Positions 32,551 to 53,365 of a stretch of 64,000 bases of DNA are shown piece after piece (the first letter of the stretch is position 1; every line of letters begins with the position of its first letter). The notes below the pieces were generated by a model. That model was given only the letters and a program-made list of their open reading frames with translations. It did no database searches and was not told the origin of the DNA. Source of the stretch: Nitrospira sp. (lineage in GTDB: Bacteria > Nitrospirota > Nitrospiria > Nitrospirales > Nitrospiraceae); contig JAUYAO010000058.1 of assembly GCA_030692565.1 (NCBI GenBank), positions 496,001 to 560,000 on the forward strand, written 5' to 3'. A program made the position numbers and the translations under genes.

Positions 32551-33073
32551 TGGCTTGCTTTCCGGTAGCTCTTTCGCAACAACATGTGCCTCGTAACACA
32601 TTGAAAGGGCATAGCTTAAAGCTTCTGGCATTGCTTGATGGTTGCTTGATTAGAATGGGGTCTAATAAGCGGAACTGAAGGGCTGCTCCTTTGAAAGCAA
32701 CAAGTCAGAGGGTCCTTGATACTTGATGGCTATTTCTAGAGGTTGCCTGTAAGCACCGAAATAGGTGAGATGACGTGCTGCAGGAACTAAGACTTTCGAA
32801 TAGCATCGTCCATCCTTAGTACGAGGCCTTATCCCGAATAGACCATGACAGCGGCATCCCATGATTAAGCAAAGAGAAGTTTAAGAACAATAGTCTATTG
32901 CAGGTGGATTGCCCAACGCTTTGACGGAACAGGCTGTATTCCTTTGCTAAATGTCGGCGAATGACGACGTTCTAGCAAAGGACTTAACAAAGGAGTACTG
33001 GTCTGATCCGTAGTCTCAGTAGGAAATGATTGCTCTATGATGGGAGAGTGTGAGGGGCGGGAGTGATACCAGG
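32551..33073. other. Gap inside the RM locus
   Basis: About 520 bp between the AlbA_2 gene and hsdR. No convincing gene or RNA was found. It contains ACTTAACAAAGGAGTACTG near 32980 and may hold a separate promoter for hsdR, but no well-spaced hexamer pair was identified. Confidence 0.45.
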
Positions 33074-36000
33074 ATGAAGACCGACACCAGCGAGAAGGGC
33101 CTGGAGAGTCTTATCTTCGCGGCGATGACTGGTGTCCCGATTGAGCCTTCTTTGAAAGACCCAGTCGTCGGTCACCCCAAAGCAGTCTATGGAGGTAGCG
33201 GCTGGATTGCTGGTTCCTCTGACGACTACGACCGCGAGTTCTGTGTCGATCTTCCCCAACTTCGAACCTTTCTGATCGAGACCCAGCCGAACATCGCCGA
33301 GGCGCTTGATCTCGACCATGACAGCCCGACTCGGCGGAAGTTTTTGGCCCGGCTGCAAGGCGAGATTTCCAGGCACGGCACGATCCAGGTCCTGCGTCAT
33401 GGTGTGAAGGACGGGCCGAACCATATCGACCTGTTCTTCGGCACCCCTTCAGAGGGGAATGAGAAGGCGCAGGTTCTCAATGCGGCGAACCGTTTTGTGG
33501 TGACGCGACAACTACGGTATAGCCGTGACGAAACCCAGCGGGCGCTGGACCTCGGTCTCTTTATCAACGGACTCCCCATCGCCACGTTCGAGCTAAAGAA
33601 TAGCCTGACGAAACAGACGGTCGAAGACGCCGTGGAGCAGTACAAGCGCGACCGCGATCCGCGCGAGAAGCTGTTCGAGTTCGGCCGTTGTGTGGCGCAT
33701 TTCGCCCTCGACGATCACGAAGTGCGGTTCTGTGCTCACCTGAAAGGAAAAGGCTCCTGGTTCCTGCCCTTCAATCAAGGCTGGAACGATGGGGCCGGGA
33801 ATCCCCCGAATCCGAACGGCATCAAGACCGATTATCTCTGGAAGCGAGTTCTGACCCGCAACGGCCTCACCGACATCCTGGAGAATTACGCTCAGGTGGT
33901 GGAGGAAAAGCACGAGAGGACTGGCAAGAAGAAGGCCGTGCAGATTTGGCCGCGCTATCATCAGCTTGATGTCGTCCGGAGGCTTCTCGCGGATGCAAGG
34001 CAGCATGGCGCGGGCCAACGGTATTTGATTCAGCACTCGGCCGGAAGCGGGAAGTCCAATTCCATTGCCTGGCTCGGCCATCAGCTGATCGGCTTGCGTA
34101 AGGACGACACCCTCGTGTTCGAGTCGATCATCGTGGTGACCGACCGCCGTATTCTCGATAAACAAATCCGTGACACCATCAAGCAGTTTGCCCAGGTGGG
34201 GGCGACCGTGGGGCATGCCGAGCATTCTGGAGACCTCCGCAAGTTCATTGCCGAGGGGAAGAAGATCATCATCTCCACGGTGCAGAAGTTCCCGTTCATC
34301 CTGGAGGAAATCGGCAGCGAGCAGCGCGGGAAGAAGTTTGCGATCATTATCGACGAAGCCCATTCAAGCCAGGGTGGCCGCACCTCGGCCGCGATTAGCA
34401 TGGCGCTGTCGACTGCCGGGGCCGAAGAGGACGACGAGACGACGGAGGACAAGATCAACCGAATCATGGAGGCTAAGAAGCTCCTGCCGAACGCGAGCTA
34501 CTTTGCCTTCACCGCGACGCCCAAAAACAAGACGCTGGAGATCTTCGGCGAGGCGCTGCCGCCGGATGCCGAGGGGAAGGTGCGGCACCGCCCGTTCCAC
34601 AGCTACACGATGAAGCAGGCGATCCAGGAAGGCTTTATCCTGGACGTGCTCAAGTACTACACGCCGGTCGAGAGCTACTACAAGCTCGTGAAAAAGGTCG
34701 AGGGCGATCCGGAGTTCGACACGAAGCGGGCCAAGAAGAAGCTGCGTCGCTACGTCGAGAGCCACGATCACGCCATCCGGCTGAAGGCCGAGATTATGGT
34801 GGACCATTTTCATGAGCAAGTGCTGGCACTGAATAAGATCGGGGGGCAGGCCAGGGCCATGGTGGTGACGACTGGCATCGATCGGGCCATCGAATACTTC
34901 CATGCTTTCCGAGACTATCTGGCCGAGCGCAAAAGTCCGCACCATCCTATTGTCGCCTTCTCAGGCGAACATGACTACGGCGGGATGAAGGTTACAGAAG
35001 CCTCGCTTAACGGCTTTCCCTCAAGCCAGATCGCGGACAAGATTCAAGAGGACCCGTACCGCTTCTTGATTTGTGCTGACAAGTTCCAGACCGGCTATGA
35101 CGAACCCCTGTTGCACACGATGTATGTGGATAAGGTCCTCTCCGGCATCAAGGCGGTACAGACCCTCTCACGCCTCAACCGTGCCCATCCGCAGAAGCAT
35201 GACGTGTTCGTGCTCGACTTCATGAACGACAGCGACACGATCAAAGAAGCGTTTGCCGACTACTACCGCACGACGATCCTTGCCGAAGAGACCGATCCCA
35301 ACAAGCTGCACGATCTGAAGGCCGTGCTCGATGGGTATCAAGTCTACGATTCAGGACAGATCGGCCAACTCGTCGCGCTTTACCTGGGCGGGGCAGATCG
35401 GGATAAGCTCGATCCGATCCTGGATGCCTGCGTCGCTGTCTACAAAGAGCAGCTCAACGAGAATGGGCAAGTAGATTTTAAGGGAAAGGCCAAGGCCTTC
35501 ACGCGCACCTATGGGTTTCTCGCTTCCATTCTGCCCTACACCAACGCCGGGTGGGAGAAATTGTCGATCTTCCTAAACTTCCTTGTGCCCAAATTGCCGG
35601 CTCCAAAGGAGGAAGATCTCTCGAAGGGGATTCTCGACGCGATTGATATGGACAGTTACCGCGTTGAGAAAAAAGCGGTGATGAAGATTCAGTTGCCGGA
35701 CGAGAATGCCGAGATCGAGCCGGTGCCGACGAGTGGAGGCGGTCATAAGTCTGAGCCTGAACTCGACCGGCTCTCCAATATCCTCAAAGCGTTTAACGAC
35801 CAATTTGGCAACATCCCGTGGACCGACGCAGATCGGGTGCACAAGCTGATTACCGAAGAAATCCCCGCCAAGGTTGCCGCCGACAGCGCTTATCAAAACG
35901 CTCGCCAGCATTCCGACAAACAAAACGCCCGGATCGAACATGACAAGGCGCTGGCGAGAGTCATGACCGCCGTGCTCAAAGATGACACGGAGCTCTTCAA

Positions 36001-36091
36001 GCAGTTCATGGACAACGAGTCGTTCAAGCGCTGGTTGACCGATACCGTTTTTCGGATCACGTATAACAATCCCCCCGGCCCTACACCCTGA
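33074..36091 (+). CDS. hsdR: Type I restriction endonuclease/translocase subunit
   Basis: About 1005 residues. N-terminal nuclease domain has the PD-ExK site with FELKNS (about 172) and preceding Asp in RALDLGLFINGLPI. The SF2 motor has Walker A HSAGSGKSN (about 320), DEAH box IIDEAHSS (about 425), FTATPKNK, and motif VI QTLSRLNRAHP. The C-terminal helical part binds HsdM. It translocates and cleaves DNA lacking the HsdM/HsdS methylation. ATG 33074 is preferred over GTG 33050. It is separated from the rest of the operon by about 520 bp. Confidence 0.93.
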   Translation: MKTDTSEKGLESLIFAAMTGVPIEPSLKDPVVGHPKAVYGGSGWIAGSSDDYDREFCVDLPQLRTFLIETQPNIAEALDLDHDSPTRRKFLARLQGEISRHGTIQVLRHGVKDGPNHIDLFFGTPSEGNEKAQVLNAANRFVVTRQLRYSRDETQRALDLGLFINGLPIATFELKNSLTKQTVEDAVEQYKRDRDPREKLFEFGRCVAHFALDDHEVRFCAHLKGKGSWFLPFNQGWNDGAGNPPNPNGIKTDYLWKRVLTRNGLTDILENYAQVVEEKHERTGKKKAVQIWPRYHQLDVVRRLLADARQHGAGQRYLIQHSAGSGKSNSIAWLGHQLIGLRKDDTLVFESIIVVTDRRILDKQIRDTIKQFAQVGATVGHAEHSGDLRKFIAEGKKIIISTVQKFPFILEEIGSEQRGKKFAIIIDEAHSSQGGRTSAAISMALSTAGAEEDDETTEDKINRIMEAKKLLPNASYFAFTATPKNKTLEIFGEALPPDAEGKVRHRPFHSYTMKQAIQEGFILDVLKYYTPVESYYKLVKKVEGDPEFDTKRAKKKLRRYVESHDHAIRLKAEIMVDHFHEQVLALNKIGGQARAMVVTTGIDRAIEYFHAFRDYLAERKSPHHPIVAFSGEHDYGGMKVTEASLNGFPSSQIADKIQEDPYRFLICADKFQTGYDEPLLHTMYVDKVLSGIKAVQTLSRLNRAHPQKHDVFVLDFMNDSDTIKEAFADYYRTTILAEETDPNKLHDLKAVLDGYQVYDSGQIGQLVALYLGGADRDKLDPILDACVAVYKEQLNENGQVDFKGKAKAFTRTYGFLASILPYTNAGWEKLSIFLNFLVPKLPAPKEEDLSKGILDAIDMDSYRVEKKAVMKIQLPDENAEIEPVPTSGGGHKSEPELDRLSNILKAFNDQFGNIPWTDADRVHKLITEEIPAKVAADSAYQNARQHSDKQNARIEHDKALARVMTAVLKDDTELFKQFMDNESFKRWLTDTVFRITYNNPPGPTP

Positions 36092-37721: not shown

Positions 37722-38150
37722 ATGGAATCCACGACCACATCGTTCACCTATTTGCGATCTAAGCTTTTGGAATGGCAGGCCAACGATCTGCTCATGCCAT
37801 CCGCGGTGAGCTGGGAGCGGTTTCAAGAAGTTGCGACAGCTCAAATTCTCCCAGTGCTTCATGAAGCCAAAGAAGCCTTAGAGGATGCAGGACTGGAGGT
37901 CACGATCACCGGTCCGGACGAGGAGACCCGCAGCCTCGGGTTCTACGTCAACGACGTTGGCTTGTTTTTTTCGCCTGCAGAAGATGGCATGACGGTCTGT
38001 TTCCTGGCTCGGCGTTTCACGGGAAAGGAACAAGGCTATGAAAGCCGCTTTCTCTATAAGCGGGCAAAGCCAGAGTCGCTCCGCCGGTTGATGGAGGAGG
38101 CGTTACTGCGTCTTCTCGGGCCACGCCGAGCCAACGCCGTGAATCAGTAA
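37722..38150 (+). CDS. Unknown 142-residue protein, paralogue A
   Basis: A strong ribosome site (AAGGAGG) precedes the ATG. The protein has a helical N-terminus (SWERFQEVATAQILPVLHEA), a central beta part with GLFFSPAEDGMTVCFLARR, and a C-terminal helix (RRLMEEALLRLLGP). The same order of elements, with matching RFQ, PVL, E and LLxP positions, occurs in the next protein, so the two appear to be diverged paralogues. No known family is recognised and no membrane segment is present. Confidence 0.65.
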   Translation: MESTTTSFTYLRSKLLEWQANDLLMPSAVSWERFQEVATAQILPVLHEAKEALEDAGLEVTITGPDEETRSLGFYVNDVGLFFSPAEDGMTVCFLARRFTGKEQGYESRFLYKRAKPESLRRLMEEALLRLLGPRRANAVNQ

Positions 38151-38249
38151 CGCCGAGGATGGTGACGCGAGTTTCACGGGAGAGTCGCGTCACCGTCTCC
38201 CATGCCGTTCGAGCCAACAAGAATAATGATCTGAGGAAGGAGGAGAAAC

Positions 38250-38675
38250 ATGAACGACTGCAGTGAGTTAATGGGTTTGAGAGCAGCGATCCGTGAGAGT
38301 CAGGATCGGGGGGTCTTACCGGACGACGCAGACGCAGGCCGGCGCTTTCAAGTCCTGGCGTCTGAGATCGCGGCGCCAGTTTTGAGAGAGCTGGTGAATA
38401 CACTCTGTCTTGAAGGCGTAACGGCGCATCTACTAATGGCCATGGACGAGGTCACCCCGTATATCGGACTCGAAGTGGATACGCCACACACCACACTCTG
38501 GATCTATCCATCCTTGACCGACCATGAGGTGCTGACCAGTATTCAAGGTGGCCGCTATCCTCTCTATTGTAGCGTTCGGCACCTGAGCTATCGTGAGTTA
38601 ACGCAGGCACATCTCGTGGCAGTTTTGGTTGAGCAATTACGTCTCGTGCTCTGTCCGGAACAACCCCTCTTGTGA
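38250..38675 (+). CDS. Unknown 141-residue protein, paralogue B
   Basis: AAGGAGGAGAAAC precedes the ATG. The layout parallels the preceding gene: RRFQVLASEIAAPVLRELVN, a central beta part ending in TTLWIYPSLTDHEVL, and a C-terminal helix LVEQLRLVLCPEQP. Pairwise similarity is weak but runs the whole length. Function unknown. Two such genes in tandem suggest a heteromeric or antagonistic pair, which is speculative. Confidence 0.65.
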   Translation: MNDCSELMGLRAAIRESQDRGVLPDDADAGRRFQVLASEIAAPVLRELVNTLCLEGVTAHLLMAMDEVTPYIGLEVDTPHTTLWIYPSLTDHEVLTSIQGGRYPLYCSVRHLSYRELTQAHLVAVLVEQLRLVLCPEQPLL

Positions 38676-38876
38676 GACGGGTGTTCCATGAGAATCAGTC
38701 GACCACGTATTGATGCGGAATGCATCACAGCGAAGAGTCTCATGCAGATGAGGGGGGCAGGATAATCGACCTATGGTTGCTGCCAGAGGCGTTGCCTTCG
38801 CGGATGAGCACTTTCGATTACCCTATCTAACTGACGTTGGAGAGAGGGACTGTAGTTATGGGCCAACCCTCGCCTC

Positions 38877-39533
38877 TTAGGGTGCCTGAATATTCTTTAT
38901 TGCTTTGTCGATGACGGACAGCTTATGGCGAATGTTCGCGACCTGCTTTGTAACGCCCTGGCAATTGATCTGGGTAGTCTTGCATTCGCAGACGGCTTCT
39001 TTGTAAAGCTCCGCTGACTGGAGAAAAGCTTCATATCGCTGGTCAATAGTCCACGTTACGGTTGCCTCCCGCGTTTTGGCTCGCTCTTCTTGACGTTCTT
39101 TAGTGAGCGTCGCCTCCTGCTGTTCCCGCGGTACATTCTTCTGTTTTCGGCACTCAACTAGTTCACGCTCCATTTTCGTGTTCATCGCCCGCAATTCCGC
39201 AATTTCCTTTCCTCGATCACTCAGTTGGTTGTCTCTGTTATTTAGGAGGAGCGCCAACTCCTCATTTGTTTGCCTCAAGGGCTCAAGAGCAACATCCTTT
39301 TCATCAAGTTGCCGTTGGAGATCCTTGATGGCGGGATCACGAGGAAGTCTGGTCGTCTCCCGGACCAGGTTCACGATGGCACGCTGTGTCTCTTCAGGTA
39401 AAAGGACGAAGGCGGCACCACGGTCGTTCAGTCGAGTCGAACTGATCTTGAGCCGAGCTTGTCGGTTGGCCTCCTTCGTCTCGACCACCTCCAACAGCGC
39501 CTGCAGCTCAGGGATCAGGTGGTGCTCGCTCAT
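38877..39533 (-). CDS. Coiled-coil protein, unknown
   Basis: A 218-residue protein on the minus strand, opposite to its neighbours. Residues about 70-170 are a long coiled coil (KDLQRQLDEKDVALEPLRQT, GKEIAELRAMNTKMERELVE). The C-terminal 50 residues contain three Cys in CECKTTQINC. No catalytic motif is seen. A frame ending at 39508 (LADRVERVLDWYGRNHGEQ) overlaps its start and might be a short upstream gene, but that is unsupported. Function unknown. Confidence 0.6.
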   Translation of the reverse strand: MSEHHLIPELQALLEVVETKEANRQARLKISSTRLNDRGAAFVLLPEETQRAIVNLVRETTRLPRDPAIKDLQRQLDEKDVALEPLRQTNEELALLLNNRDNQLSDRGKEIAELRAMNTKMERELVECRKQKNVPREQQEATLTKERQEERAKTREATVTWTIDQRYEAFLQSAELYKEAVCECKTTQINCQGVTKQVANIRHKLSVIDKAIKNIQAP

Positions 39534-39727
39534 CGGTCTGCTCTCCGTGGTTCCTGCCGTACCAATCCAAAACGCGTTCCACTCTATCGGCGAGTGTCCC
39601 CAGAAACATGAACTCCGGCAGCGCGTGGGGATGCCTGCCCCGGAACGTGGTTGACACCGTGTTTAGGGCTTTCCCTGCCCCTCCCCAGACCCCTCCGCCG
39701 TGCCCTGCAAGGCCAACGTTCTCCTGG

Positions 39728-39762
39728 TGAAAACACTGCCAACAGGTCCGCGATGTTGGCAG
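39728..39762. repeat. Inverted-repeat site A shared with 46142-46178
   Basis: TGAAAACACTGCCA begins the site, and CTGCCAACA (39736-39744) is matched perfectly by TGTTGGCAG (39754-39762) across a 9-bp spacer. The 14-base left part is identical at 46142, and the distance from CACTGCCA to the following TGGCAG is 23 bases in both. It lies about 155 bp upstream of the three-gene integrase operon. It may be a regulator binding site or a recombination site. Confidence 0.6.
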
Positions 39763-39883
39763 GACGAGCCATCCCACTTTTTGACCAGCGCGTCTCATAT
39801 TGAGAAGCAGTGTTGCACAGAAGGTTTTAAGACGAGCCACCCTCGTGAGCCCCACGTGGGTCGTCAACCAAGGAGAAGGGGTT

Positions 39884-40648
39884 ATGAAAGGACATATCGT
39901 GCTGCGGGTACTCAAGAACCGGATCGCCTATGAGGCCAATGTTCGGTACAAGGGGAAGACCATCTACATCGGGAGATTTTGTGAAGAACAGGACGCCAAG
40001 AAGGGCCAGCGTGAGGCCTACAAGCTTCTGAAGCAAGGCCAACGGCCGAGTCCCCCGCCGGTGCCGAGAATGCAGGTGGGGGATGAGGGGGTTACGTCGC
40101 GGTCCCTAATCGATGGCACGATCGTCTACGACATTAATGTCACGGTCAAACGCAAGAGGGACTCCGTGCAATCCTTTCTCACGAAAGTGGAAGCGATTGC
40201 GGCGCGGACAGCCTGGCTGGAGCACATCAATGCGGGCGATCTGACCTTCCGGCCGACCACCCAGCCGTTGCCTAAACACAAGCCGTTGGGGGCCGAGTTG
40301 AGGATGGATCCTTCCCCGCCAGCCGACATTCTGTTTGTGGACTACGCCTATCGTTGGTATCAGGCCCGGAAGGAGTTGTGGGCAGCCTGGACGCTCTATG
40401 AATATCGGTCTGCAGTCAGACGCTTCTTAAATCCGGTCTTAGAGACGGTACCTGTGATCGCTGTCAGCGAAGGCCATCTCAAGACACTGGACGCCATGCT
40501 GGCAAGCCACAAGGTCACCCAGAAACGTCGGACCAAGATTCGCCGGGCCCTTGCGAAAATTCTGCATTCGACGATCGTCGACGGGTTGCGGACGAGCCAT
40601 CCAGCCTCCTACGCCTGGTGTCGCACGGGACAGGTCACACAACCATGA
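39884..40648 (+). CDS. Integrase-like protein without catalytic domain (1)
   Basis: A 254-residue protein with ribosome site AGGAGAAGGGG. The N-terminal part (YEANVRYKGKTIYIGRF, then a second copy-like DGTIVYDINVTVKRKRDSVQ) resembles small arm-type DNA-binding domains of phage integrases. Residues about 145-230 (FVDYAYRWYQARKELWAAWT, YEYRSAVRRFL, KVTQKRRTKIRRALAKIL) resemble the helical core-binding domain. It then stops, with no Arg-His-Arg-Tyr catalytic part. Its stop overlaps the next start (ATGA). It could be a DNA-binding helper for the integrase two genes downstream. Confidence 0.6.
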   Translation: MKGHIVLRVLKNRIAYEANVRYKGKTIYIGRFCEEQDAKKGQREAYKLLKQGQRPSPPPVPRMQVGDEGVTSRSLIDGTIVYDINVTVKRKRDSVQSFLTKVEAIAARTAWLEHINAGDLTFRPTTQPLPKHKPLGAELRMDPSPPADILFVDYAYRWYQARKELWAAWTLYEYRSAVRRFLNPVLETVPVIAVSEGHLKTLDAMLASHKVTQKRRTKIRRALAKILHSTIVDGLRTSHPASYAWCRTGQVTQP

Positions 40649-41082
40649 TGACGGTATCGCTGACGCTCAACGAATTCGGTCGGAGATGGTTTCTCAGGCA
40701 TGCGGGTACATGGAGTCCATCCAGAGGTCGTCGCATCCGGCGGTGTAGCCTGAGTCAAATCATGCCCTCACTTGGCTCTCTATTGCTGTCACGGCTCGAT
40801 GTCGGAATGATTCAGAAGTGGCTCAACGATCTTGTGTTAAAGGAGTCAGCTGTGAGCGGTCATCTCGCCGCATATACGCTTCTGGAATTACTGGAAGCGG
40901 CCCACGCCCAGAGCCTGGTGTCGACGGATCAGATCGCCCAGTGTCGAGAGATGCTGTCCTACCCCGCAGTCACCGCGTTGTACAAACGAGACCGGCATAC
41001 CGACGATCTCTGTGACCCTCAACAGCAGGACAGCCTCATGGATGTAGGAGAAAGGGAACAAGACAATGAAACCGAAGACTAA
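40645..41082 (+). CDS. Integrase core-binding-like protein without catalytic domain (2)
   Basis: A 145-residue protein starting at tandem ATG codons that overlap the previous stop. The first half (LTLNEFGRRWFLRHAGTWSP, SLSQIMPSLGSLLLSRLDVG) looks like the SAM-like core-binding region of tyrosine recombinases. The rest is helical with an acidic end. No catalytic residues are present. It overlaps the full integrase downstream by 17 bp. Three overlapping cistrons imply stoichiometric co-expression. Family assignment is inferred. Confidence 0.55.
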   Translation: MMTVSLTLNEFGRRWFLRHAGTWSPSRGRRIRRCSLSQIMPSLGSLLLSRLDVGMIQKWLNDLVLKESAVSGHLAAYTLLELLEAAHAQSLVSTDQIAQCREMLSYPAVTALYKRDRHTDDLCDPQQQDSLMDVGEREQDNETED

Positions 41083-42271
41083 CCCCGTTTTCACTCCCGA
41101 GCACCAGGTCGTGGCGCCAGGTCGAGACGACATGCCCACGAACTCTGGTCAAGCGTCTCGTCACGAGGGGAGTGTACAGGCACAACCCGCACCCATCATC
41201 CCGCTTTTCCCGTCATCCGATGACCCCGATGAGTCAGCGGGGCGTCTCACGCCGCAGTCCACCGTGGCCGACTTAGGACTGTTTGTGAAACGTCGGTATT
41301 GGGGCGGGATGAAGCACAGTGCGATGGTCAACTACACCAATATTCTCAAGTACAACATCTTTCCAGCCCTGGGCCACCTGCCCCTTGAGGCCCTTGAGGA
41401 TTTGGAGCTGATTGAAGACCTCATTATCGAGTGGCGGGAGAGCGCACTGAAGCGCGGGACCATCAGTAGTCGCATTTCTGTCCTGGTCTGGCTCTACGAT
41501 GCGGCCATCGCTCGGGATCTGATCAAGAAGAACCCCCTTAAGCAGGCCAGAAAGTTGTTGAAACAGAAAAAGTGGAAGAAATTTCGTGCTACCCCCTTTA
41601 GCGCCGAAGATGAGTGCCAGCTGGTGGAAGCGTTTAAAACTCTGGCACCGCGCTACCATTGCCTGTTGTTACTCTTGCTCAGGACAGGCATGCGGATTGG
41701 CGAAGCGTTGGCCTTAAAACTCGAGGACATCGATTGGAAACTGAGAAAGATCCGGATCAAGGCCACCTGGACGTGTGGGATCGAGGACACGCCCAAATAC
41801 GAGTCGGACCGGGTCATTGCCATCACCGATGACCTCTTCCTCGTCTTGCAAGCCTATGTCAAATTTCTCAAGTATGAAGAACAAACCAGCTGGTTGGCGC
41901 CAACCGTCTTGCTGTTCCCGGGAAAAAACCGAGAGACCCCCCTCAGTCTCGCCGCGTTCCGACGGGACGTGTGGCAAGTCCTGCTGGCGGATCTCGGCAT
42001 CCGCTATCGCCGCATTCACGACTTGCGCCATACCTTTGCCACCTCCGTCCTACTAGCTGGAGCCCGCATTGAATTAGTGAGTAGTTGGCTCGGCCATACG
42101 GATGTGGGCTTCACGTACCGGACGTATTGCCACCTGTTAGACCAAGCACATGACGAGATCGTCAAATATATCGGAGTTGCGAGTGCACGGCCCCTTCCCC
42201 TCCAGACCTGTCCCGCGTGCCGGCGCCCGCTGGACACGGATCTCTCGCCTGCCCCCTGGGCGGTCCCCTGA
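41066..42271 (+). CDS. Tyrosine recombinase/integrase
   Basis: A 401-residue site-specific recombinase. Core-binding domain spans about residues 68-165. The catalytic domain has Arg in LRTGMRIGEAL (about 206), HxxR in IHDLRHTFATS (about 317), LGHTDVGFTYRTY (about 341) and the nucleophile Tyr just after. A short tail with CPACRRPLDTD could form half of a zinc site. About 65 Pro/Ser-rich residues precede the core domain. It is the third gene of an overlapping operon whose first two products look like integrase pieces. It could mobilise a nested element or the whole island. Confidence 0.88.
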   Translation: MKPKTNPVFTPEHQVVAPGRDDMPTNSGQASRHEGSVQAQPAPIIPLFPSSDDPDESAGRLTPQSTVADLGLFVKRRYWGGMKHSAMVNYTNILKYNIFPALGHLPLEALEDLELIEDLIIEWRESALKRGTISSRISVLVWLYDAAIARDLIKKNPLKQARKLLKQKKWKKFRATPFSAEDECQLVEAFKTLAPRYHCLLLLLLRTGMRIGEALALKLEDIDWKLRKIRIKATWTCGIEDTPKYESDRVIAITDDLFLVLQAYVKFLKYEEQTSWLAPTVLLFPGKNRETPLSLAAFRRDVWQVLLADLGIRYRRIHDLRHTFATSVLLAGARIELVSSWLGHTDVGFTYRTYCHLLDQAHDEIVKYIGVASARPLPLQTCPACRRPLDTDLSPAPWAVP

Positions 42272-42734
42272 GCTTGACGGAACTCCATTACTACTTTGAC
42301 CGTGGACGATCTGTCATTGGTGGGCAGTTCCCCACTCTGTGCCACAAGGCGGCTTGAGTTGGGGGTGCTGGGTTCTGCGGGTGATCCCATCATTTATAGG
42401 CTGCCTGCCCTTGTGGTGTGCGTCCGTCAGGCAGAGGCCATCCGCCGGCGAGGTGGAGAGCTGACACCAGGCAGACCGTGCGCCTGAGAGCCTCTCCGTT
42501 GAAACGGGCGCCCGTACGACGGCGGCGGGTAACAGGCATCCGATCATGACTCCGCAGGCCACTGGGCCTGAACGCTCACCGTGCCGGTGGGTCTGTGGAC
42601 AGATTGCTACCGCGGTACCTACGCAAGAAATAGCATAGCCTGATCGAAGATCTCATTAAACGGCGGGGACTACGCATCGGCCTTAGGCGAGATGGCCCGC
42701 TCAAACGAATCACAGAACGAAAGGAGAACAGACG
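42272..42734. other. Gap after the integrase operon
   Basis: About 460 bp with no supported complete gene. Near 42644-42737 a frame reads LIEDLIKRRGLRIGLRRDG and ends overlapping the next start, but a TAG lies just before it and no start codon is available. It may be a stop-interrupted remnant. Confidence 0.45.
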
Positions 42735-42914
42735 GTGATTACACAATTGATGGATGGTCGGTTTCGGGTGTCGGTCCGCTGCGCGGACAATAAGACTCGC
42801 TGGCGGATTTGCGCGTATGAGGGCGCTGCCCAATTCTACGAAGCGATCTTGCTGGCCGGATGGTACGACGACTTCACGGCTGTACCACGCCGGAAGCGCA
42901 CCAGACATGCGTGA
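42735..42914 (+). CDS. Small basic protein, unknown (59 residues)
   Basis: A short gene with GTG start and AAGGAG at good spacing. The product (VRCADNKTRWRICAYEGAA then FYEAILLAGWYDDF) is rich in aromatic and basic residues and ends with a basic tail (PRRKRTRH). No family is recognised. Its stop overlaps the following small frame by 8 bp. It is supported by the ribosome site and by plausible amino-acid composition only. Confidence 0.5.
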   Translation: MITQLMDGRFRVSVRCADNKTRWRICAYEGAAQFYEAILLAGWYDDFTAVPRRKRTRHA

Positions 42915-43041
42915 CGGGAGCATTTTTGTGACGGCCTTGCGTGGGTTCGTCCTGCGTGATCTGCCTCCCGCCGTTGCCAGTTATTTGGAGAATGGGCGCG
43001 ACCTTGTACCTAAGAAGGTTCGCGCCCAGCTCATGAAGTGA
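42907..43041 (+). CDS. Small protein, unknown (44 residues)
   Basis: Begins with ATG inside the end of the preceding small gene and reads MRDGSIFVTALRGFVLRDLP, ending in VRAQLMK. The overlap suggests coupled translation. No family is recognised. The frame is open further upstream, but that part has shadow-like composition. Confidence 0.4.
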   Translation: MRDGSIFVTALRGFVLRDLPPAVASYLENGRDLVPKKVRAQLMK

Positions 43042-43216
43042 GCGCCCCGACTCTCACAACACACCCATTCCTGTGTCTGAGGAACGGGCCATGACACGAG
43101 CGGATCGTTGACGGGCGTCGCTGCGCCCCTGTCTCGCTCCCTGTTCCATATACGTCCTACCCATGCCGGAGAGCAGTGGAGTGGTTTTCGCAGTCGTGGA
43201 GTTCCGTCCCTCGTTA

Positions 43217-43252
43217 ATATGGCTTTTAAGGCATATGCTCTCTATGCCATAT
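43217..43252. promoter_or_regulatory. Nested palindromes upstream of the HigBA-like locus
   Basis: ATATGGC (43217-43223) pairs with GCCATAT (43246-43252), and inside it GGCATA (43230-43235) pairs with TATGCC (43243-43248). Position just upstream of a toxin remnant and its XRE antitoxin suggests an autoregulatory operator. Confidence 0.5.
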
Positions 43253-43259
43253 TGTAGCC

Positions 43260-43405
43260 GTGAGTTGGATGGTTGAGTTGGCGACGAGCTTGAGCCGGAG
43301 TTCGACACGCTCCACGAAGACGTGCAAACGGAGCTTTTAGCGTTGACGCGTCTCCTTCAGCATTTCGGACCGCACGTGGGGCGGCGGAAGAAGGGAAGGG
43401 CATAA
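43260..43405 (+). pseudogene. Degraded HigB/Gp49-type toxin gene
   Basis: The frame beginning near 43260 reads SWMVEL, and a second frame after a shift near 43280 reads EPEFDTLHEDVQTELLALTR then LLQHFGPHVGR. Together these match the first half of Gp49/HigB RelE-like toxins. The second half is replaced by RKKGRA and a stop, so a frameshift and a deletion have removed the active C-terminus. It ends immediately before the antitoxin gene. Toxin activity is not expected. Confidence 0.65.
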
Positions 43406-45222: not shown

Positions 45223-45741
45223 TTATTGTCCCTTCATTCCCAACATGGTGACCGCCTCGGTGACAGTAATCATGACGGTCAATGGATCGACTGGTGATGC
45301 CACAAACCCCCATTCCTCATAAAAGTGCTTCGCTGATTCCGAGAGGGCATGGACGAGAATAGCTCGGATACCGGCGATCTCCGAAGCTTGGACGGTCCGC
45401 AGAATCGCATCGCGCAGCAGGCCCGTTCCGATGCCGCGGCGTTGATGTTCCTTATCAACGGCCAGCCGGCCGAGCACCATGACCGGCAGAGGGTCCGGCA
45501 TGTTGCGCCGCACGCGCCCCGTCGCTTCCACCAACGCGACGGCGCCAACGGCGAGGGTGTAGTAGCCAACGACCTTTTTATCTGCACAGACCACATAGGT
45601 GCGCGAAGCCCCGCTGGCTTCATTCTTGAGCGCGCGGCGCCGCAGCCATTCATCCAGGACCGGCTCGCCGGACTCAAAGGCGGACACGTCATGCTTCGCA
45701 GACAGTTTTTCTGGCGGACGTATTTCAGCGGGGCGGCTCAT
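45223..45741 (-). CDS. tacT: GNAT toxin of TacT/AtaT type
   Basis: A 172-residue acetyltransferase with the TacT layout: FESGEPVLDEWLRRRA, ASRTYVVCADKKVVGYYTLA, acetyl-CoA loop EHQRRGIGTGLL, and the catalytic Tyr region HFYEEWGF. Such toxins acetylate aminoacyl-tRNA and stop translation. The start overlaps the antitoxin stop by 4 bp, the standard arrangement. All key residues are present, so the pair appears intact. Confidence 0.88.
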   Translation of the reverse strand: MSRPAEIRPPEKLSAKHDVSAFESGEPVLDEWLRRRALKNEASGASRTYVVCADKKVVGYYTLAVGAVALVEATGRVRRNMPDPLPVMVLGRLAVDKEHQRRGIGTGLLRDAILRTVQASEIAGIRAILVHALSESAKHFYEEWGFVASPVDPLTVMITVTEAVTMLGMKGQ

Positions 45742-46031
45742 CGCTCCCAGGGTGCACGTGTGTGAAGGAGGCGTCGCAGCTTCGGATTGCTCGCCGGAGG
45801 ATGGTCGAGCATCGCTGTAAATCGCTCGAATGCGTCCTTGGAGAGGGCAAAGTAGCGCCGGTCGAGCAGGACCGTTTCCGCTTCCCGGCAGACGGTTTCG
45901 AGCATGAAATCAGAGCGACTCTTTCCCAGCGCTTCCGCCGCCCGGTCGATCAGCCCTTTCTGTTTCTGACTGGCGCGCAGGTTGATCGTTTCACTTCGCC
46001 CTGTTGTCCCCGGTGCTCCCGTCTTAACCAT
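45738..46031 (-). CDS. tacA: DUF1778 (TacA-type) antitoxin
   Basis: A 97-residue protein with a ribbon-helix-helix N-terminal part (SETINLRASQKQKGLIDRAA, GKSRSDFMLE) and a C-terminal toxin-neutralising segment (LSKDAFERFTAMLDHPP). The start is preceded by GGAGG. The complex with the downstream GNAT toxin is expected to repress its own promoter through the palindrome at 46057-46074. Confidence 0.85.
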   Translation of the reverse strand: MVKTGAPGTTGRSETINLRASQKQKGLIDRAAEALGKSRSDFMLETVCREAETVLLDRRYFALSKDAFERFTAMLDHPPASNPKLRRLLHTRAPWER

Positions 46032-46055
46032 GGCCGCCTCCTTGTGTATACGACA

Positions 46056-46084
46056 AGTGTACATGACCGTACACACGTTGTAAA
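46056..46084 (-). promoter_or_regulatory. tacAT promoter with operator palindrome
   Basis: On the minus strand TTTACA and TACACT are separated by 17 bp. Within the spacer and overlapping the -10 lies a perfect palindrome, GTGTAC-N6-GTACAC (46057-46074). This is the expected layout for autorepression by the antitoxin-toxin complex. Confidence 0.6.
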
Positions 46085-46141
46085 TACATGACCGGATGGG
46101 AAGATACTCCCCCTGTTGAGCCCACGGCCCGAGCCACCCTC

Positions 46142-46178
46142 TGAAAACACTGCCAGCAATAGCCTCAAGGTGGCAGTG
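46142..46178. repeat. Inverted-repeat site B shared with 39728-39762
   Basis: TGAAAACACTGCCA is identical to site A. CACTGCCA (46148-46155) pairs perfectly with TGGCAGTG (46171-46178). It lies about 115 bp upstream of the excisionase-like gene. Sites A and B are in direct orientation, 6.4 kb apart. Confidence 0.6.
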
Positions 46179-46259
46179 TCTATGATCCCCACGACCCCTC
46201 AGTCCAACACATACTCGTTCCTAGAGGGAACATCTTCCCTACTGCGGAAGGAGCCTGTG

Positions 46260-46532
46260 ATGTCTGACCAGAGCAGCCCATTCATGACCCTCAAAGAGGC
46301 TGCGGCCTTTCTCCGCTACTCCCCTAGCACGCTCTATCAGCGTGCGGACATCCCACGAATAAAATTACCCGGATCAAAAGACTGGCGCTATGAGAAACAA
46401 GCGCTCCTCGCCTGGGCCGCATCTGCTGTGCCCCAACGTCTTGAGCCGCAGCATGAGCCACCCCAACTTGCCGCAGAGAATCCGCAGGCACCGCGCCCGG
46501 TGCTTCGTCGCCGCAGTTCACGCTATCGCTAA
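46260..46532 (+). CDS. Excisionase/helix-turn-helix DNA-binding protein
   Basis: A 90-residue protein with AAGGAG before the ATG. It carries a MerR-like HTH_17 domain (FMTLKEAAAFLRYSPSTLYQ, then KLPGSKDWRYEKQALLAWA), the form used by excisionases and recombination directionality factors. A Pro/Arg-rich tail follows. It lies 16 bp upstream of an integrase, so it probably controls excision or integrase expression. Confidence 0.8.
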   Translation: MSDQSSPFMTLKEAAAFLRYSPSTLYQRADIPRIKLPGSKDWRYEKQALLAWAASAVPQRLEPQHEPPQLAAENPQAPRPVLRRRSSRYR

Positions 46533-46548
46533 AAAAGGACTCCCTCCG

Positions 46549-47628
46549 ATGGTTATCCGGCACCGCACGACAAAGAAAGGGCTCGCCAGCGACCTTGACT
46601 TCTGGTGGAAGAAGGGACGCTACCGGCCCACCCTTGGTTATGACCTGGACCCTGCAGAAGAGATGATCGAAGCGGGGAAAATGATTGAGCGCATTAAAAC
46701 TGGCCAGCTCAATGGAGGGTGCACGCGTAGCGGTGGAACCACCATGGCCGACTTTCAGGCGAGCTATCTGTCGGAGCTCAAGGAACGGGGTGTGCTGGAT
46801 CTGAAGAGACCGGAGCGGGTGCTCGAGACCTATCTCGTTCCCGCCTTTCCCCAGCCCATGCGGGACATCTCGTACAGCGACGGACAGGCCTATATCGCGA
46901 AGCGTCGCAAGAAAGGCGCATCGGATGGCACCATTGCCCGCGAATGGACGATTCTTCTGAGTTTGATGAACTTTGCTGCGAAAGTTGGAGAAATCCCGGC
47001 CAATCCCCTGCAAGGGGTCTCGGCGCCAAAGAGTGGGGTGCGCGATCGCATGCCGACCGCCGAAGAAATCGCTCGTATCTTCGCCGTCGCGACGGATCGG
47101 CTTCAACGCGCTGCGATGGTGGCGATGAACTGTGGGTTGAGAGAAGAAAAAGTGTGGGCGATCCGGCCAAGTTGGATTGTGCAGAAAGCCGATGGGCCCT
47201 GGCTGCAGTTGCCGCCTGCAAGATCCAAAAAGAAAGGGAATCCCACGTTGCTCCCTTTGAACCGCTTCGCCTATGCGGCGCTCACTGCCGGCGAGCCGTC
47301 ACCAAACGATGACCGCGTGTTCTATGAGTGGTCGGACAAACATGCCCTGGGCAAGGCATGGTCACGAGCGACAGATGCGGCAGAGATTGAAGATCTACGA
47401 TTCCATGATTTGCGGCGATGGTTTGCATCGATTTTGGAAGACTTGGGTGACGGAGAGGAGGAAGAGGCGGTTCCAAGAGAGGTCGTGAAATACCTTCTCG
47501 GGCATCAACCTGCCGATACACTGGAACGGCACTATTTGGTTCGATCAAAAGGGTGGGCCAAGAAGCTGCGTCGGGCGGTGGAGCAGCTGGGCGATCGGTA
47601 TAAGCAGTTCGTCCTCGAAAGGGAATAA
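46549..47628 (+). CDS. Phage-type tyrosine integrase
   Basis: A 359-residue integrase; AAGGA precedes ATG 46549, whereas the longer open frame overlaps the excisionase gene. Catalytic residues: Arg in NCGLREEKVWAI (about 195), HxxR in FHDLRRWFAS (about 285), LGHQPADTLERHY (about 316) with Tyr nucleophile. It is the best candidate for the enzyme that inserted the island into tRNA-Gly, since it is the integrase nearer the intact tRNA and is paired with an excisionase. About 5 kb of defence genes now separate it from that end. Confidence 0.88.
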   Translation: MVIRHRTTKKGLASDLDFWWKKGRYRPTLGYDLDPAEEMIEAGKMIERIKTGQLNGGCTRSGGTTMADFQASYLSELKERGVLDLKRPERVLETYLVPAFPQPMRDISYSDGQAYIAKRRKKGASDGTIAREWTILLSLMNFAAKVGEIPANPLQGVSAPKSGVRDRMPTAEEIARIFAVATDRLQRAAMVAMNCGLREEKVWAIRPSWIVQKADGPWLQLPPARSKKKGNPTLLPLNRFAYAALTAGEPSPNDDRVFYEWSDKHALGKAWSRATDAAEIEDLRFHDLRRWFASILEDLGDGEEEEAVPREVVKYLLGHQPADTLERHYLVRSKGWAKKLRRAVEQLGDRYKQFVLERE

Positions 47629-47757: not shown

Positions 47758-47815
47758 TTAGGCCGCCATGCGGCCGGAAGAGACACATGATTCGTCTGGG
47801 CATTTCCATCTTCCA

Positions 47816-48728
47816 ATGATTCGATTTAGGCGATTTACGGGCCAGCTTCTCGACGCTTGGTTAATTAATCAAGGCATTGTCAGTACGCATCCGCATTACC
47901 GACTGAGGGTTTGGCGCGAGAATCGTTCTGGTCTGGCTGCGATCCGAGCCGAGCTAATTGCCTACATAGAGGAAGCGCTCGATGACGCGCGTCGGCGGGT
48001 CCGGCGCGGGTTTGAAGACAACCTCTCGCCCTTTAACGACCCCATGACAGATCCAGCAGCGAATTATCCTGCGCTACTTCATCGCATCACGCTGCAAGGC
48101 TATTGGGGGGAAACTCTCGCGGTTCTCGCGGTCGAGCATTGGGGGGCTCACGGCCATACAGATTGGAGAGTTCCAGCGTTTCTCTTCCGTCTACACGATC
48201 AAGAATTTCAGCATCTCGAGTCGATCAATGAGCGCGTTCTTGCCGGGGAGACCTACGACCCTGATCGCATTGCTGAGCGACGCCCTGGCCGTACGGGCGA
48301 TGACGGCCTAGCGTTCCGCGTGAACGGTGAGAACACCGTCACCGATGTTCTGACCATTGAGGCCAAGTGTCTTGCTCGAAATAATAACGATAAGATCCGA
48401 GAAGCACACGAGAAGCTCGCAGCGGGCTCGATGAGACCCTCGGGTGTCCGGGAACTTATCAATCTCCTAGCTGAGTATGCCACGACCGATGCTCAGGCGT
48501 GGCACGAAGCGTTGCTCAAACTGTGGCGGGATGGTTATCGGGGTGCGAAGCGGTACGACGCTGTCGGATATACCTGTGGGAGTATTCCCGTTCGGAATGG
48601 CCGTGTGGCGTGGTTACCCGTAGACGCACCCCATCCAGCCTATACCAAGGCACGAAGACTTGAGGGCATGGAGTTTCCAGTTCGAAGACCTGACCACCAT
48701 CATCGACACGCTCTACCGAGGAGCTTGA
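47816..48728 (+). pseudogene. HamA/AbpA-like nuclease gene with a one-base frameshift
   Basis: Without correction the frame runs to 48796. The body (GYWGETLAVLAVEHWGA, then GDDGLAFRV and VLTIEAKCLARN) fits a DUF1837-type protein with a PD-ExK nuclease core: Asp in GDDG and Glu-x-Lys in IEAK. Past 48666 the frame becomes basic and unlike protein (RRPDHHHRHALPRS), while the neighbouring frame reads WSFQFEDLTTIIDTLYRGA and stops at 48728, just before the helicase start. Removing one G from GGG at 48664-48666 restores this end. Start could also be 47768. The nuclease role and Hachiman relation are inferred. Confidence 0.6.
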
Positions 48729-48729
48729 G

Positions 48730-51700
48730 ATGCCGAACGCAGCCACTATCGAGGTTGCGCGCGAGGTCCGTCACAGGCTCGCGGGTAGTGCCCTGACCGA
48801 AAGACAAGCCAAGCTCTACAGTCAGCGTTTGCGCCGAGACATGGGGCGTGAGGGCCTAGCAAGCTTTGCGCCTGCAGACGTAGATGCTTATCTCGACGAA
48901 GCAATACTGCTACTGCATTGTGGCCTACTTGAACGGCGTGCAGACCGGGCGAGCGGCTGGCGCGATTCCATAAAACGGGCGGCAGAGATCTTGGAGTGGT
49001 TATCTCAATCCAGTTTGAAGCCACCTGGGGCACCGCTGCATCTTCTTGCCGGGGCGGCCTATCAGCTCGCAGACTATCCAGCCATGGCACTTGGCCACCT
49101 CCGCTATGTGCCAAACGATGAGCCGATGTCCATCATATTGCGGGAATTTTTACGGGCAGATTTTCCGGCGACACTAGAAGCGACGCACGGCTTTTGGCTG
49201 AATCAACGAGCATTTGGAGGCACGAATCGGATCGACGCAGCAGATCTGACGGCCCACACTTTTCAGCACGTTCTCATGTGCATCGGAACAGTATGTAACT
49301 ATCTACGGATGGGTAGAGAAAGCATGACGGATCGAGCTCTTACAAAGCTCGAGAACCTTGCGTCGAGCTTTCTCCACAGCCATGATCCTTATTCGTATCT
49401 CCTTGCGGTACTCACAGCTGCAAGCTGCCGACAGTTTGTTGAGTCTAGCCTCTGGCCTCAGGTTGAGCGCCTCCGCGAAGTTTCCACAGTTGCAGCTAGC
49501 GCGGCATTAACCCAGTTTGCACGATCCGCCTTTGTCAACCGCCGCGCACTCATCTGGCCGGCGCAAGCTGCAGGCATCGAACGCTTGCGTGAGAACTCCT
49601 CGTTCGTTCTTTGCACACCGACCGGATCGGGTAAGACTACCGTTGCGACTCTAGCCTTGGTACAGGGCTTGTTTGCCGCGCCGCCCGAAGTTCCGCTTGG
49701 GCTTGCTCAGATTGGACTGGGAAACTTAGTCCTTTATCTTGTGCCGTCACGCGCACTTGCAGCTGAAGTCGAAGGTAGGCTTGCACAGGATCTAAAAGGT
49801 ATTGCTGCGGAACCAATTATGGTGACAGGCCTCTACGGCGGCGTCGACTGGGGTCCAACCGACGTCTGGCTGCAGACAGATCGGGCCACCATCGTCATCT
49901 GCACATTCGAGAAGGCTGACGCCCTGTTACGTTATCTCGGCATCCTCTTCCTTGGCCGAGTTCGCATGGTGGTTATTGATGAAGCACACATGGTCGAACA
50001 AGATCGGGCTCGTCTCACTGGACTTGAAGATGGCTCGTCACGCGCGTTCCGTCTTGAACATCTAGGATCCCGCTTGCTACGGGCCCGCAACGATTACGGC
50101 TTTAGGGTACTGGCCCTCTCGGCAGTCGCGGCTCGGGCAGCTCCAGCTTTGGCCCGATGGATCACTAGCTCGACGGATGCAATCCCGACCACATCGTCCT
50201 ATCGCAGCACTAGGCAGATGCTTGGACGACTTGAGGTAAGCGCTGCAGGCCAATACACCATCCGTTATGATTTGATGGATGGTCGATCCCTAAAGTTCGA
50301 CGACGAACGTCCGGGAGATACACCATATGTCCTCAGTCCGTTTCCTCAGCTGCCCGGCGGGATCGATGAGAATCAAGGGCCTGAGGTACAGATGCGGGCT
50401 CCAACCCTATGGGCTGCTCTGCAACTTGCTGCTGAGAGACCGGATGGATCGAAACCGTCTGTCTTGATCTCATTGACGCAGAACGTTGAAGCATTCTCTG
50501 CAACATGCGCAGACCTCATGGAGTATTGGTCGGAGAATACGCTTCCCAACTATCGAACCCTTGACGAGACCAATGAAGTATGGGTTCGGTGTCTTGCCTG
50601 CGCAGAGGATTACTTTACGGCGCAATCTGTGGAGTATCGACTGCTTCGTCGGGGGATAGCTGTCCATCATGGGAAGATGCCTGGCCTTCTCGCTAGACGG
50701 CTAAAGGCCGTTATTGATCGAGGCCTTGTACGCATCGTCATCGCAACCTCGACGCTTTCCGAAGGCGTAAATATTCCCGTGAACTTCCTGTTGATCCCCA
50801 GCGTCTATCGCGGGCCAACAGTAATGAGCCTGCAAGAATTTACAAATCTGATCGGTCGAGCTGGACGTCCTGGGGTTTCTGCCGAAGGTAGTGCGCTTGT
50901 CGTCCTGCCAGAGCGGACTGTGATTCGGGGTCGCCTTGGCCGCCCCAGGCTGGCTCCCAGCCGACAATGGGACGGTTATGAAGGATTGGTAGCCGGCATC
51001 GAGGAGACGACCATCGCATCCAGGGAAGGGACACCGGAGGATGAAGCATCAAGTCCCCTTGCCCACCTGCTTCGTGCCCTTGAAGCCGCATGGATACAAC
51101 TGACGGGCGGCGGCAACTCCGAGGACTTCACGACCTGGCTGGAACGCACGGCCGTTATCGGCATTGATGGAGAAGCTGGCTCGGCTTACAAATATCTAGA
51201 CACACTCGATTCCTTCCTGATCGCAGCGATTCAAGAGGTGGAGGACTTGCGGCTTGTGGAGTTGGCACCTGATCAACTTGAGGCGGAACTCGCCGCAATT
51301 TGGCGCCGAACATATGCATTCGCGTCAGCCCAAGAGGAGTCACGCCTGGCTGCGATATGGTTGGCACGTGGTCGTGTGATCAAAGCGCAGTACCCGGACA
51401 CAATCCAACGCCGCCGCATCTACAAGACAAGTTTGTCACCGCGTTCAGCGACGAGTCTTCTGGATCTTGTCGAAACCGTTCGCGTCGCGCTTCAGAGTGG
51501 CGCAGACTATGCTCGGTGGGCGCCCGAACGACGATTTAGTTTCATTCGTGACATTCTCGCTCTTCTCTCGCAGGTGCCCTCCTTCCGAATCTCAACTGCC
51601 TTAGGACGTAGACGGAACTTCGAAGATTGGCCAAAATTACTACGCTGGTGGTTGGCAAAGACTACCTTGTCGACTCAGCCGCAACCAAATGAGATTCCGG

Positions 51701-52735: not shown

Positions 52736-52810
52736 TGGAGCGGGAAAAGGGATTTGAACCCTCGACCCTCGCCTTGGCAAGGCGATGCTCTACCACTGAG
52801 CTATTCCCGC
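52736..52810 (-). tRNA. tRNA-Gly (anticodon GCC)
   Basis: A 75-base gene that folds into a full cloverleaf: acceptor GCGGGAA/TTCCCGC, D arm GCTC/GAGC, anticodon stem TCGCC/GGCGA around loop TTGCCAA, and T arm GAGGG/CCCTT with TTCAAAT. The CCA end is encoded. Bases 52736-52783 form the right-hand attachment site, and the identical 48 bases occur at 25551. Integration restored the gene. Confidence 0.96.
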
Positions 52811-52866: not shown

Positions 52867-53365
52867 GCAGCTCATTCCAAGAAATTGGTTGAATCAAGCA
52901 GCTTATGAATTGGGCCACAAAGGGCTAAGTCGTTACCAAATGGTAGCGCGCTATATTTGCAGTCTGAATAATATACAACACATTGTTTTTATGGAGTGTG
53001 TTGCGAGTATGCCTTACCCATACTAAGGCCATTGGTACATGAACTACTCATTGATGGCGTTACATTGAATTCTGATCTTACTGCGACGGTTGATCATATT
53101 CATTTTATATAACAGTAGTTTGAAGATTTGATTGCATTGCGGTTTTTGGAAAATGCGATGGTTTGGATATTGCGATACTGAAGTCCTGCTATGTCCAAGA
53201 ACATTCACCAGATGTCTAACGGGATCAAGAATCACGAGCTTGATTTAGCTAAGCACGAGAGTGGGTTCTTGGGCAGATCCATCAGGAAGGGGGGTGGTGG
53301 GGTTCAGTTGTGCGGAAGTAAGGGTACGCGGGCTCTTTGAGCCCTCAACTTAGGAGGTGTTCACA
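52867..53365. other. Upstream region of nxrA
   Basis: About 500 bp, AT-rich between 52870 and 53240, with no supported gene. It should hold the nxrAB promoter, but no convincing hexamer pair was found. A perfect GGGCTC-TTT-GAGCCC hairpin (53330-53344) sits just before the nxrA ribosome site and probably lies in the mRNA leader. Confidence 0.5.

Follow-up and report, generated by a model that had tools for sequence, protein, structure and literature searches.

A complete tyrosine recombinase preceded by two putative recombinase-derived helper proteins in overlapping genes of a Nitrospira genome

Tyrosine recombinases normally hold arm-binding, core-binding (CB) and catalytic domains in one chain, four copies of which work together. 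In several described mobile elements, such proteins are encoded side by side with partners. The recombinases of archetype RIT elements (ritABC) all carry the catalytic tyrosine (PMC3414803, PMC10214605). GInts carry a recombinase operon (ginABCD) at the island end together with cargo, and all four genes are needed for recombination; GinA and GinB are complete, GinC lacks part of the catalytic motif while keeping the catalytic-domain fold, and the small GinD is required (PMC5385486). Strand-biased circularizing integrative elements (SEs; intA-tfp-intB-srap) encode two complete recombinases, Srap, and Tfp, a non-catalytic partner with the recombinase fold, and the gene overlaps suggest translational coupling. 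Tfp is a large protein, those shorter than 550 aa having been discarded as putatively truncated, and has been reported mostly from Gammaproteobacteria (PMC10214605). Here we describe three overlapping genes in a 64,000-nucleotide stretch of a Nitrospira sp. genome (the window: assembly GCA_030692565.1, contig JAUYAO010000058.1, positions 496,001 to 560,000, forward strand; the genome comprises 4.17 Mb in 60 contigs and is estimated to be 100% complete). We put at roughly one in two the probability that this trio is the recombination module of a mobile element or genomic island, with a single catalytic subunit assisted by non-catalytic ones derived from recombinases.

The first gene (39884..40648, plus strand) encodes helper 1 (P0001, 254 aa), which has two putative AP2-like arm-type regions and a CB domain. 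The second (40645..41082, plus strand) encodes helper 2 (P0002, 145 aa), with a CB domain only, and the third (41066..42271, plus strand) encodes the catalytic recombinase (P0003, 401 aa), with CB and catalytic domains and a C-terminal CPAC motif. The first two genes overlap by 4 bp (ATGA) and the last two by 17 bp; the coordinates, frames and overlaps given in a first-pass annotation of this DNA were exact when the open reading frames (ORFs) were checked. The codon-position G+C of the three ORFs (e.g., 0.58/0.44/0.71) is like that of neighbouring genes. The same annotation had described the first two products as lacking a catalytic domain and the third as a complete tyrosine recombinase, and both descriptions hold. 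P0003 matched Pfam Phage_integrase above the cut-off (E 2.6e-22) and has R210, K244, H318, R321, H344 and Y354 at the motif positions of the R-K-H-R-H-Y set. In simple motif scans of the three products, H-x-x-R and LGH...Y were present in P0003 only. A six-frame scan of 39300-43400 found no remnant of a catalytic domain in genes 1 and 2, the best match outside P0003 having an E-value of 8.6; the helpers are thus not simply frameshifted integrases. The closest solved chains to P0003 are annotated 'Int protein' (6en0, 6emy, and 6emz; best E 9e-13), which we take to be the Tn1549 integrase. No arm domain was seen in the first 60 residues of P0003.

Arm-type and core-binding-like regions had been proposed for both helpers. 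The CB part of this proposal stands for both, and an arm-type look was found, by appearance, in P0001 only. Pfam Phage_int_M matched P0001 (aa 151-242, E 8e-4) and P0002 (aa 11-101, E 6e-4) below the gathering score. A CB hidden Markov model built from 16 recombinases, P0003 among them, gave E-values of 1.4e-6, 2.1e-4, and 4.8e-33 for P0001, P0002, and P0003, respectively. A profile of P0001 and its counterpart P0005 (see below) matched the solved integrase CB domain 2khq (E 4.5e-4); P0002 had no match in the profile search of solved structures. Among PHROG families, P0001 matched the integrase family phrog_1 over aa 77-241 (E 5e-6), while its arm-like parts weakly matched HNH-endonuclease families (E 5e-4 to 0.6); these matches fit AP2-like folds. 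In a low-confidence model (mean pLDDT, the predicted local distance difference test, 44.5), residues 2-49 of P0001 form three strands and a helix and residues 70-116 two strands and a helix, followed by four to five helices in the CB part. Judged by appearance and the weak PHROG matches, the first 120 residues of P0001 are likely two AP2-like arm units. Foldseek returned nothing useful with the poor P0001 model; with the poor P0002 model, the best match was lambda integrase (1z1g_B), not significant at E 0.92, and 5j0n_G and 3lys were within the first eight. Taken at the level of sequence, these results support P0001 and P0002 as recombinase-derived DNA-binding proteins without a catalytic domain.

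We searched a comparison set of 175 genomes from the family for the trio, with a divided outcome: the exact trio occurs in its own genome only, and a divergent operon with another domain layout occurs in G075:C30 (L032). The latter encodes, in order, P0004 (111 aa, AP2-like only), P0005 (250 aa, AP2-like plus CB; Phage_int_M E 5e-14, over the cut-off), P0006 (426 aa, a complete recombinase 32-33% identical to P0003) and P0007 (341 aa, AP2-like plus a degenerate catalytic domain); an Xis-like gene and another recombinase come next. In the catalytic domain of P0007, Q takes the place of the H in HxxR and LGV that of LGH, and the usual tyrosine motif is absent. P0003 and P0006 share a C-terminal CxxC motif. 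Among 17 recombinase-type proteins, P0001 and P0002 both score best against P0005 (31.6 and 23.4 bits; the runners-up reach 30.3 and 15.5 bits), so the helper arrangement recurs; P0001 and P0005 both stop just past the CB domain. A 1084-aa ORF, presumably an ISL3-type transposase fused to a RecB-like nuclease part, lies at L032 7493-10747, its start some 250 bp upstream of the G075 operon.

P0001 has matches in 12 of the 175 genomes: its own, G075:C30 (a 317-aa frame), and ten in which the match is to the CB part of 427-459-aa frames. The P0001/P0005 profile matches 49 genomes, none of which yielded a third helper; its top score outside the two operons, 53.5 bits, falls in a 451-aa frame. Short-frame CB or catalytic matches from this profile and from the P0007 searches were rejected, since they belong to integrases that are broken or ordinary, or to partial genes where a contig ends (16 regions, a part of the short-frame matches listed). 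Beyond the family, no homologues of P0001 were found in the genome contigs, plasmids or phages searched, and none of P0005 or P0006 among viral contigs. P0005 matched four plasmid records with a cover of 36-40%, and P0003 matched four loci in genome contigs, including L028 and L029, which hold trios called RIT-like by layout only.

The restriction of the exact trio to one genome is also what would be expected if the operon combined one intact recombinase with the debris of one or two integrases whose catalytic domains are gone. Broken integrases do occur in the family, with CB and catalytic parts on separate neighbouring ORFs (L091, L092, L094, L095, L097, and L101), and RIT genes are missing or truncated in some plasmids (PMC3414803). 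However, the trio differs from the L091-type loci in having no catalytic remnant, its overlaps are tight, and in codon-position composition it looks like coding DNA. The domain boundary at which P0001 stops is also that of P0005, and the best match of helper is to helper. In addition, a stand-alone AP2-like ORF 3' of the trio (42735..42914, plus strand, 59 aa, GTG start) has a homologue in G120, the two being embedded in 251 bp of DNA with 77% identity, with a nonsynonymous divergence (dN) of 0.20 and a synonymous divergence (dS) of 0.63; this too argues against decay, though it concerns a different ORF. We consider decay unlikely.

The DNA around the trio contains candidate sites for a recombinase. 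A 27-bp palindrome, CTGCCA-N15-TGGCAG, with 10-bp arms and a 7-bp centre lies at 39736..39762 and ends 121 bp before the first ATG; a second of the same form lies at 46150..46176, before an Xis-recombinase pair 6.4 kb downstream of the trio. Ten-base-pair arms around a 7-bp centre are a usual layout of a tyrosine-recombinase core site, and the first palindrome is a candidate core site or operator. A 17-bp repeat (TGAAAACACTGCCAACA, 39728..39744, plus strand) overlaps it and is identical at 16/17 positions to 46142-46158. The pair consists of an Xis-like helix-turn-helix ORF (HTH_17; 46116..46532, plus strand), for which an internal ATG, right of palindrome 46150, is probably the conserved start, and a second tyrosine recombinase (46390..47628, plus strand), whose real start is probably 46531, giving 365 aa.

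The sequence CGAGCCAYCC occurs five times in the window against 0.55 expected. Four copies share one orientation (plus strand) between 39765 and 46139: a candidate arm-type site at 39765..39774, a second copy at 39833..39842, a third at 40593..40602 within the 3' end of the helper 1 gene, and a fourth at 46130..46139, 10 bp left of the second palindrome. Further copies inside or near the 3' ends of Xis-type genes in L032, L036, L133, and L135 may represent Glu-Pro-Pro codons in homologous proteins and were therefore left uncounted. A core-like palindrome together with direct repeats is reminiscent of how core and arm sites occur in integrase attachment regions; two arm-like domains of P0001 facing two direct repeats are suggestive, no more. 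The second copy lies inside a 19-bp sequence (TTAAGACGAGCCACCCTCG, 39827..39845, plus strand) shared with G075: the 19-mer TTAAGACGAGCCAYCCTCG ends 38 bp (window) and 39 bp (G075) 5' of the first ATG and is 18/19 identical between the two, whereas 60 shuffles gave at most 14. With one mismatch or fewer, it occurs in two of the 175 genomes, once each, both times before such an operon. Because the pattern was derived from these two operons, the weight lies on its absence elsewhere and on the spacing. The 19-mer was not found in viral contigs.

If the trio is a recombination module, P0003 would be the sole catalytic subunit, and P0001 and P0002 would be made with it by translational coupling. Since P0003 lacks an arm domain, we propose that P0001 supplies arm-type DNA binding in trans, reading the CGAGCCAYCC repeats. 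The CB domains of P0001 and P0002 would occupy or bridge core half-sites, and P0003 would cut and rejoin, probably at the 27-bp palindrome. The moved unit would be the segment between palindromes 39736 and 46150, just upstream of the resident Xis-recombinase pair; it holds the trio, the AP2-like ORF, a regulator, a phosphoesterase, and a GNAT-DUF1778-like pair, and would be laid out in GInt fashion with the operon at one end, then cargo, and a site at the other end. Complex formation, the requirement for the helpers, the motifs as attachment sites, and mobility are what we infer from these features. A narrower and more tentative version of the module is a domain-split recombinase: CB-only and arm-plus-CB proteins would act in trans around a single catalytic subunit, so that non-cutters hold some of the half-sites and limit the strand exchanged.

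The stricter palindrome pattern CTGCCARC-N13-TGGCAG occurs at exactly two places in the source genome (39736 and 46150) and exactly two in G075, and all four precede recombinase modules. The looser form, CTGCCA and TGGCAG with any gap of 6-32, occurred four times in 13 loci (245.5 kb), every time with a gap of 15: before the trio at 39736 and before Xis-recombinase pairs at 46150, G075:C30 (L032 3740), and G075:C8 (L133 9834). Forms with a single mismatch precede Xis in L132, L134, and L135 and a half-catalytic ORF in L135. In the palindrome scan, which covered 172 genomes, the stricter pattern occurred at 12 distinct places; eight lie outside the source genome and G075, and the ~3-kb loci around these eight showed no recombinase ORF. 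Homology between the window and G075:C8 starts at 46131, beside the second palindrome. For the second recombinase itself, no repeat of its end longer than 14 bp was found elsewhere in the window, and the only tRNA, a possible target (Gly, 52736-52810), is 5 kb away.

Several observations weigh against the trio being a recombination module. The exact trio is confined to one genome, and there are only two such operons, which are about 30% identical and differ in domain layout; the margin of P0001 for P0005 over an ordinary integrase is small (31.6 vs 30.3 bits), and P0006 carries its own arm-like region. The single-sequence AlphaFold2 models of P0001 and P0002 (mean pLDDT 44.5 and 51.6) were too poor for use. 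The palindrome pattern gave 14 rows in the 172 genomes and its reversed control 20, so it is not enriched genome-wide. No palindrome with up to two mismatches precedes the first gene of the G075 operon, where a transposase ORF starts about 250 bp upstream. A palindrome also precedes the G075:C8 Xis-recombinase pair, which has no trio nearby, and so could be a feature of that pair. The search for an empty site found none, the left flank (38700-39727) matching nothing but the source genome (1/172). Finally, the two palindromes of the window do not have the same 7-bp centre. A XerCD-like recombinase would not tolerate such a difference, but a Tn916-like one could. So could an SE-like one; the 6-bp spacers at the two ends of SE elements differ as well (PMC10214605).

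The same sites can be read as regulatory. The helpers would then be truncated recombinase proteins that repress the operon through the upstream repeats or compete with P0003 to set direction, in an Xis-like or dominant-negative role, with the palindromes and CGAGCCAYCC repeats as operators. We regard this as doubtful, somewhat more so than the domain-split recombinase, yet less so than decay. It would account for the recurrence of the palindrome in the promoter region before both the trio and the Xis-recombinase pairs, and for the position that the 19-mer takes in both operons, 38/39 bp upstream of the first ATG; the leader of the G075 operon also folds with its ribosome-binding site paired (z -2.98), whereas the window leader folds no better than shuffles (z -0.37). 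Two CB proteins, together with the stand-alone arm and half-catalytic proteins described next, exceed the needs of a simple repressor, and the homology between the window and G075:C8, which ends beside the palindrome, is better explained by a recombination point.

The Xis-recombinase pair is common, its recombinase being matched in 52 of the 175 genomes at E 1e-25. In three units (the window, G120:C18, and G075:C8), recombinase-fragment ORFs, with or without cargo, are bounded by a palindrome-like site on one side and the site before Xis-recombinase on the other; the left site in G075:C8 has one mismatch. The G120 unit measures 1 kb and contains, between two 37-bp repeats of this kind (89%), a 97-aa N-terminal catalytic half and the 59-aa AP2-like ORF homologous to 42735..42914, which sits before Xis-recombinase. 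The window copy of this ORF looks like an arm domain by eye and has no family match. In G124:C76, a complete 406-aa recombinase directly follows a 282-aa ORF with a weak, degenerate catalytic match (E 0.0075). In this group, then, stand-alone fragments of recombinases are found repeatedly next to active ones. Stand-alone ORFs with the N-terminal catalytic half only, at L135 1958-2251 (minus strand, 97 aa) and L133 252-542 (plus strand, 96 aa; L133 is G075:C8), stop at about the same point in two genomes. If the domain-split recombinase were real, the stand-alone AP2 and half-catalytic ORFs beside Xis-recombinase pairs in G120 and G075:C8 would belong to the same modular kit as additional components.

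Other genes of the window were identified alongside the trio. Within the candidate moved segment, a GNAT-type acetyltransferase ORF (45223-46076, minus strand) adjoins a 112-aa ORF that we take to be a DUF1778/TacA-type antitoxin; together they are a possible acetyltransferase toxin-antitoxin pair. A type I restriction enzyme R subunit lies upstream of the trio at 33050-36091 (REase_I, E 2e-44), which gives the segment the look of an island rich in defence genes, close to the nitrite oxidoreductase gene. Immediately after the second recombinase comes a putative Hachiman-like pair (47768-52314): a 1194-aa helicase ORF (48730-52314) matched HamB models of the Hachiman defence system (E 1e-56) and is preceded by a 342-aa ORF without a family match in the place of HamA. 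The ORF at 53357-56803 is presumably the nitrite oxidoreductase alpha subunit, for which reason we call the host a 'Nitrospira-type' nitrite oxidiser. One unnamed family of ~140-aa proteins precedes recombinase clusters in the window (37722-38675), at L132 645-1606, and at L036 3040-3480, the latter two being the places in G124:C76 and in contig C57 of the source genome; the window and C57 copies are 27-31% identical, and the G124 copies were matched by DNA. The C57 cluster (L036 3958-8818) consists of a recombinase, a 182-aa ORF with a catalytic domain only, an Xis-like ORF, and a further recombinase.

The trio is like RIT elements in having three adjacent, overlapping recombinase-derived genes, and differs from them in that one recombinase is complete here and all three are in the RIT archetype. 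This difference had been pointed out in the first-pass annotation, and it is supported here. When compared with the nine proteins of the three RIT-like trios in L028/L029, P0001 and P0002 had no significant match, and P0003 scored only 2-34 bits. The trio shares with GInts an operon at one end with cargo and a partner comparable to GinC with its incomplete catalytic motif; it differs in combining one complete recombinase with two CB proteins that have no catalytic domain. GInts have short imperfect direct repeats at their ends, to which the 17-bp repeat of the window may correspond. The next same-strand ORF taken as a gene, in the place of GinD, is the 59-aa AP2-like one without a family match above the cut-off, and GinD was not a query. 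With SEs it shares a non-catalytic recombinase-fold partner, overlapping genes, and differing centres or spacers at the two ends, whereas gene number, sizes, and order are unlike intA, a large Tfp, intB, and srap. The Tn554 family has TnpA, TnpB, and TnpC against the one complete recombinase here; its sequences were not queries. The best solved-structure match of P0003 (E 9e-13) points to Tn916/Tn1549-type integrases, a group that tolerates differing crossover sequences; in the Tn1549 integrase, unlike here, the arm domain is part of the one chain.

It is very improbable that the trio is an ordinary but divergent member of one of the known multi-recombinase elements (RIT, GInt, SE, or Tn554). 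An overlapping recombinase operon with cargo would suit such a member, and in GInts the operon occupies the 5' end and the imperfect flanking repeats measure 10-11 nt (PMC5385486). The window has a 17-bp repeat (16/17) at 39728 and 46142, for which no empty site was found. On the other hand, the operon has only one complete recombinase, and P0003 is nearest to P0006 (141 bits), then to phage-type integrases of the same family (92-109 bits), and far from the RIT-like proteins. No GinD-, Srap-, or TnpC-like small gene was found beside the trio on the same strand, GinD not having been used as a query.

In the parts of the open-licence literature covered by our search, helpers trimmed to CB alone or to arm plus CB were not found, and none of the titles found there on Nitrospira and tyrosine recombinases pointed to such a system. 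Non-catalytic partners with a recombinase fold are known from GinC and Tfp, so the trio can be placed as a more finely split form of a known arrangement; what appears to be new, judging from the predicted domains, is the reduction of the helpers to CB alone or arm plus CB. Why GInts and SEs need a non-catalytic partner is an open question. A system whose helpers are cut down to putative DNA-binding domains makes it directly testable: the proteins are small and can be mixed and matched, and short candidate DNA sites are already named.

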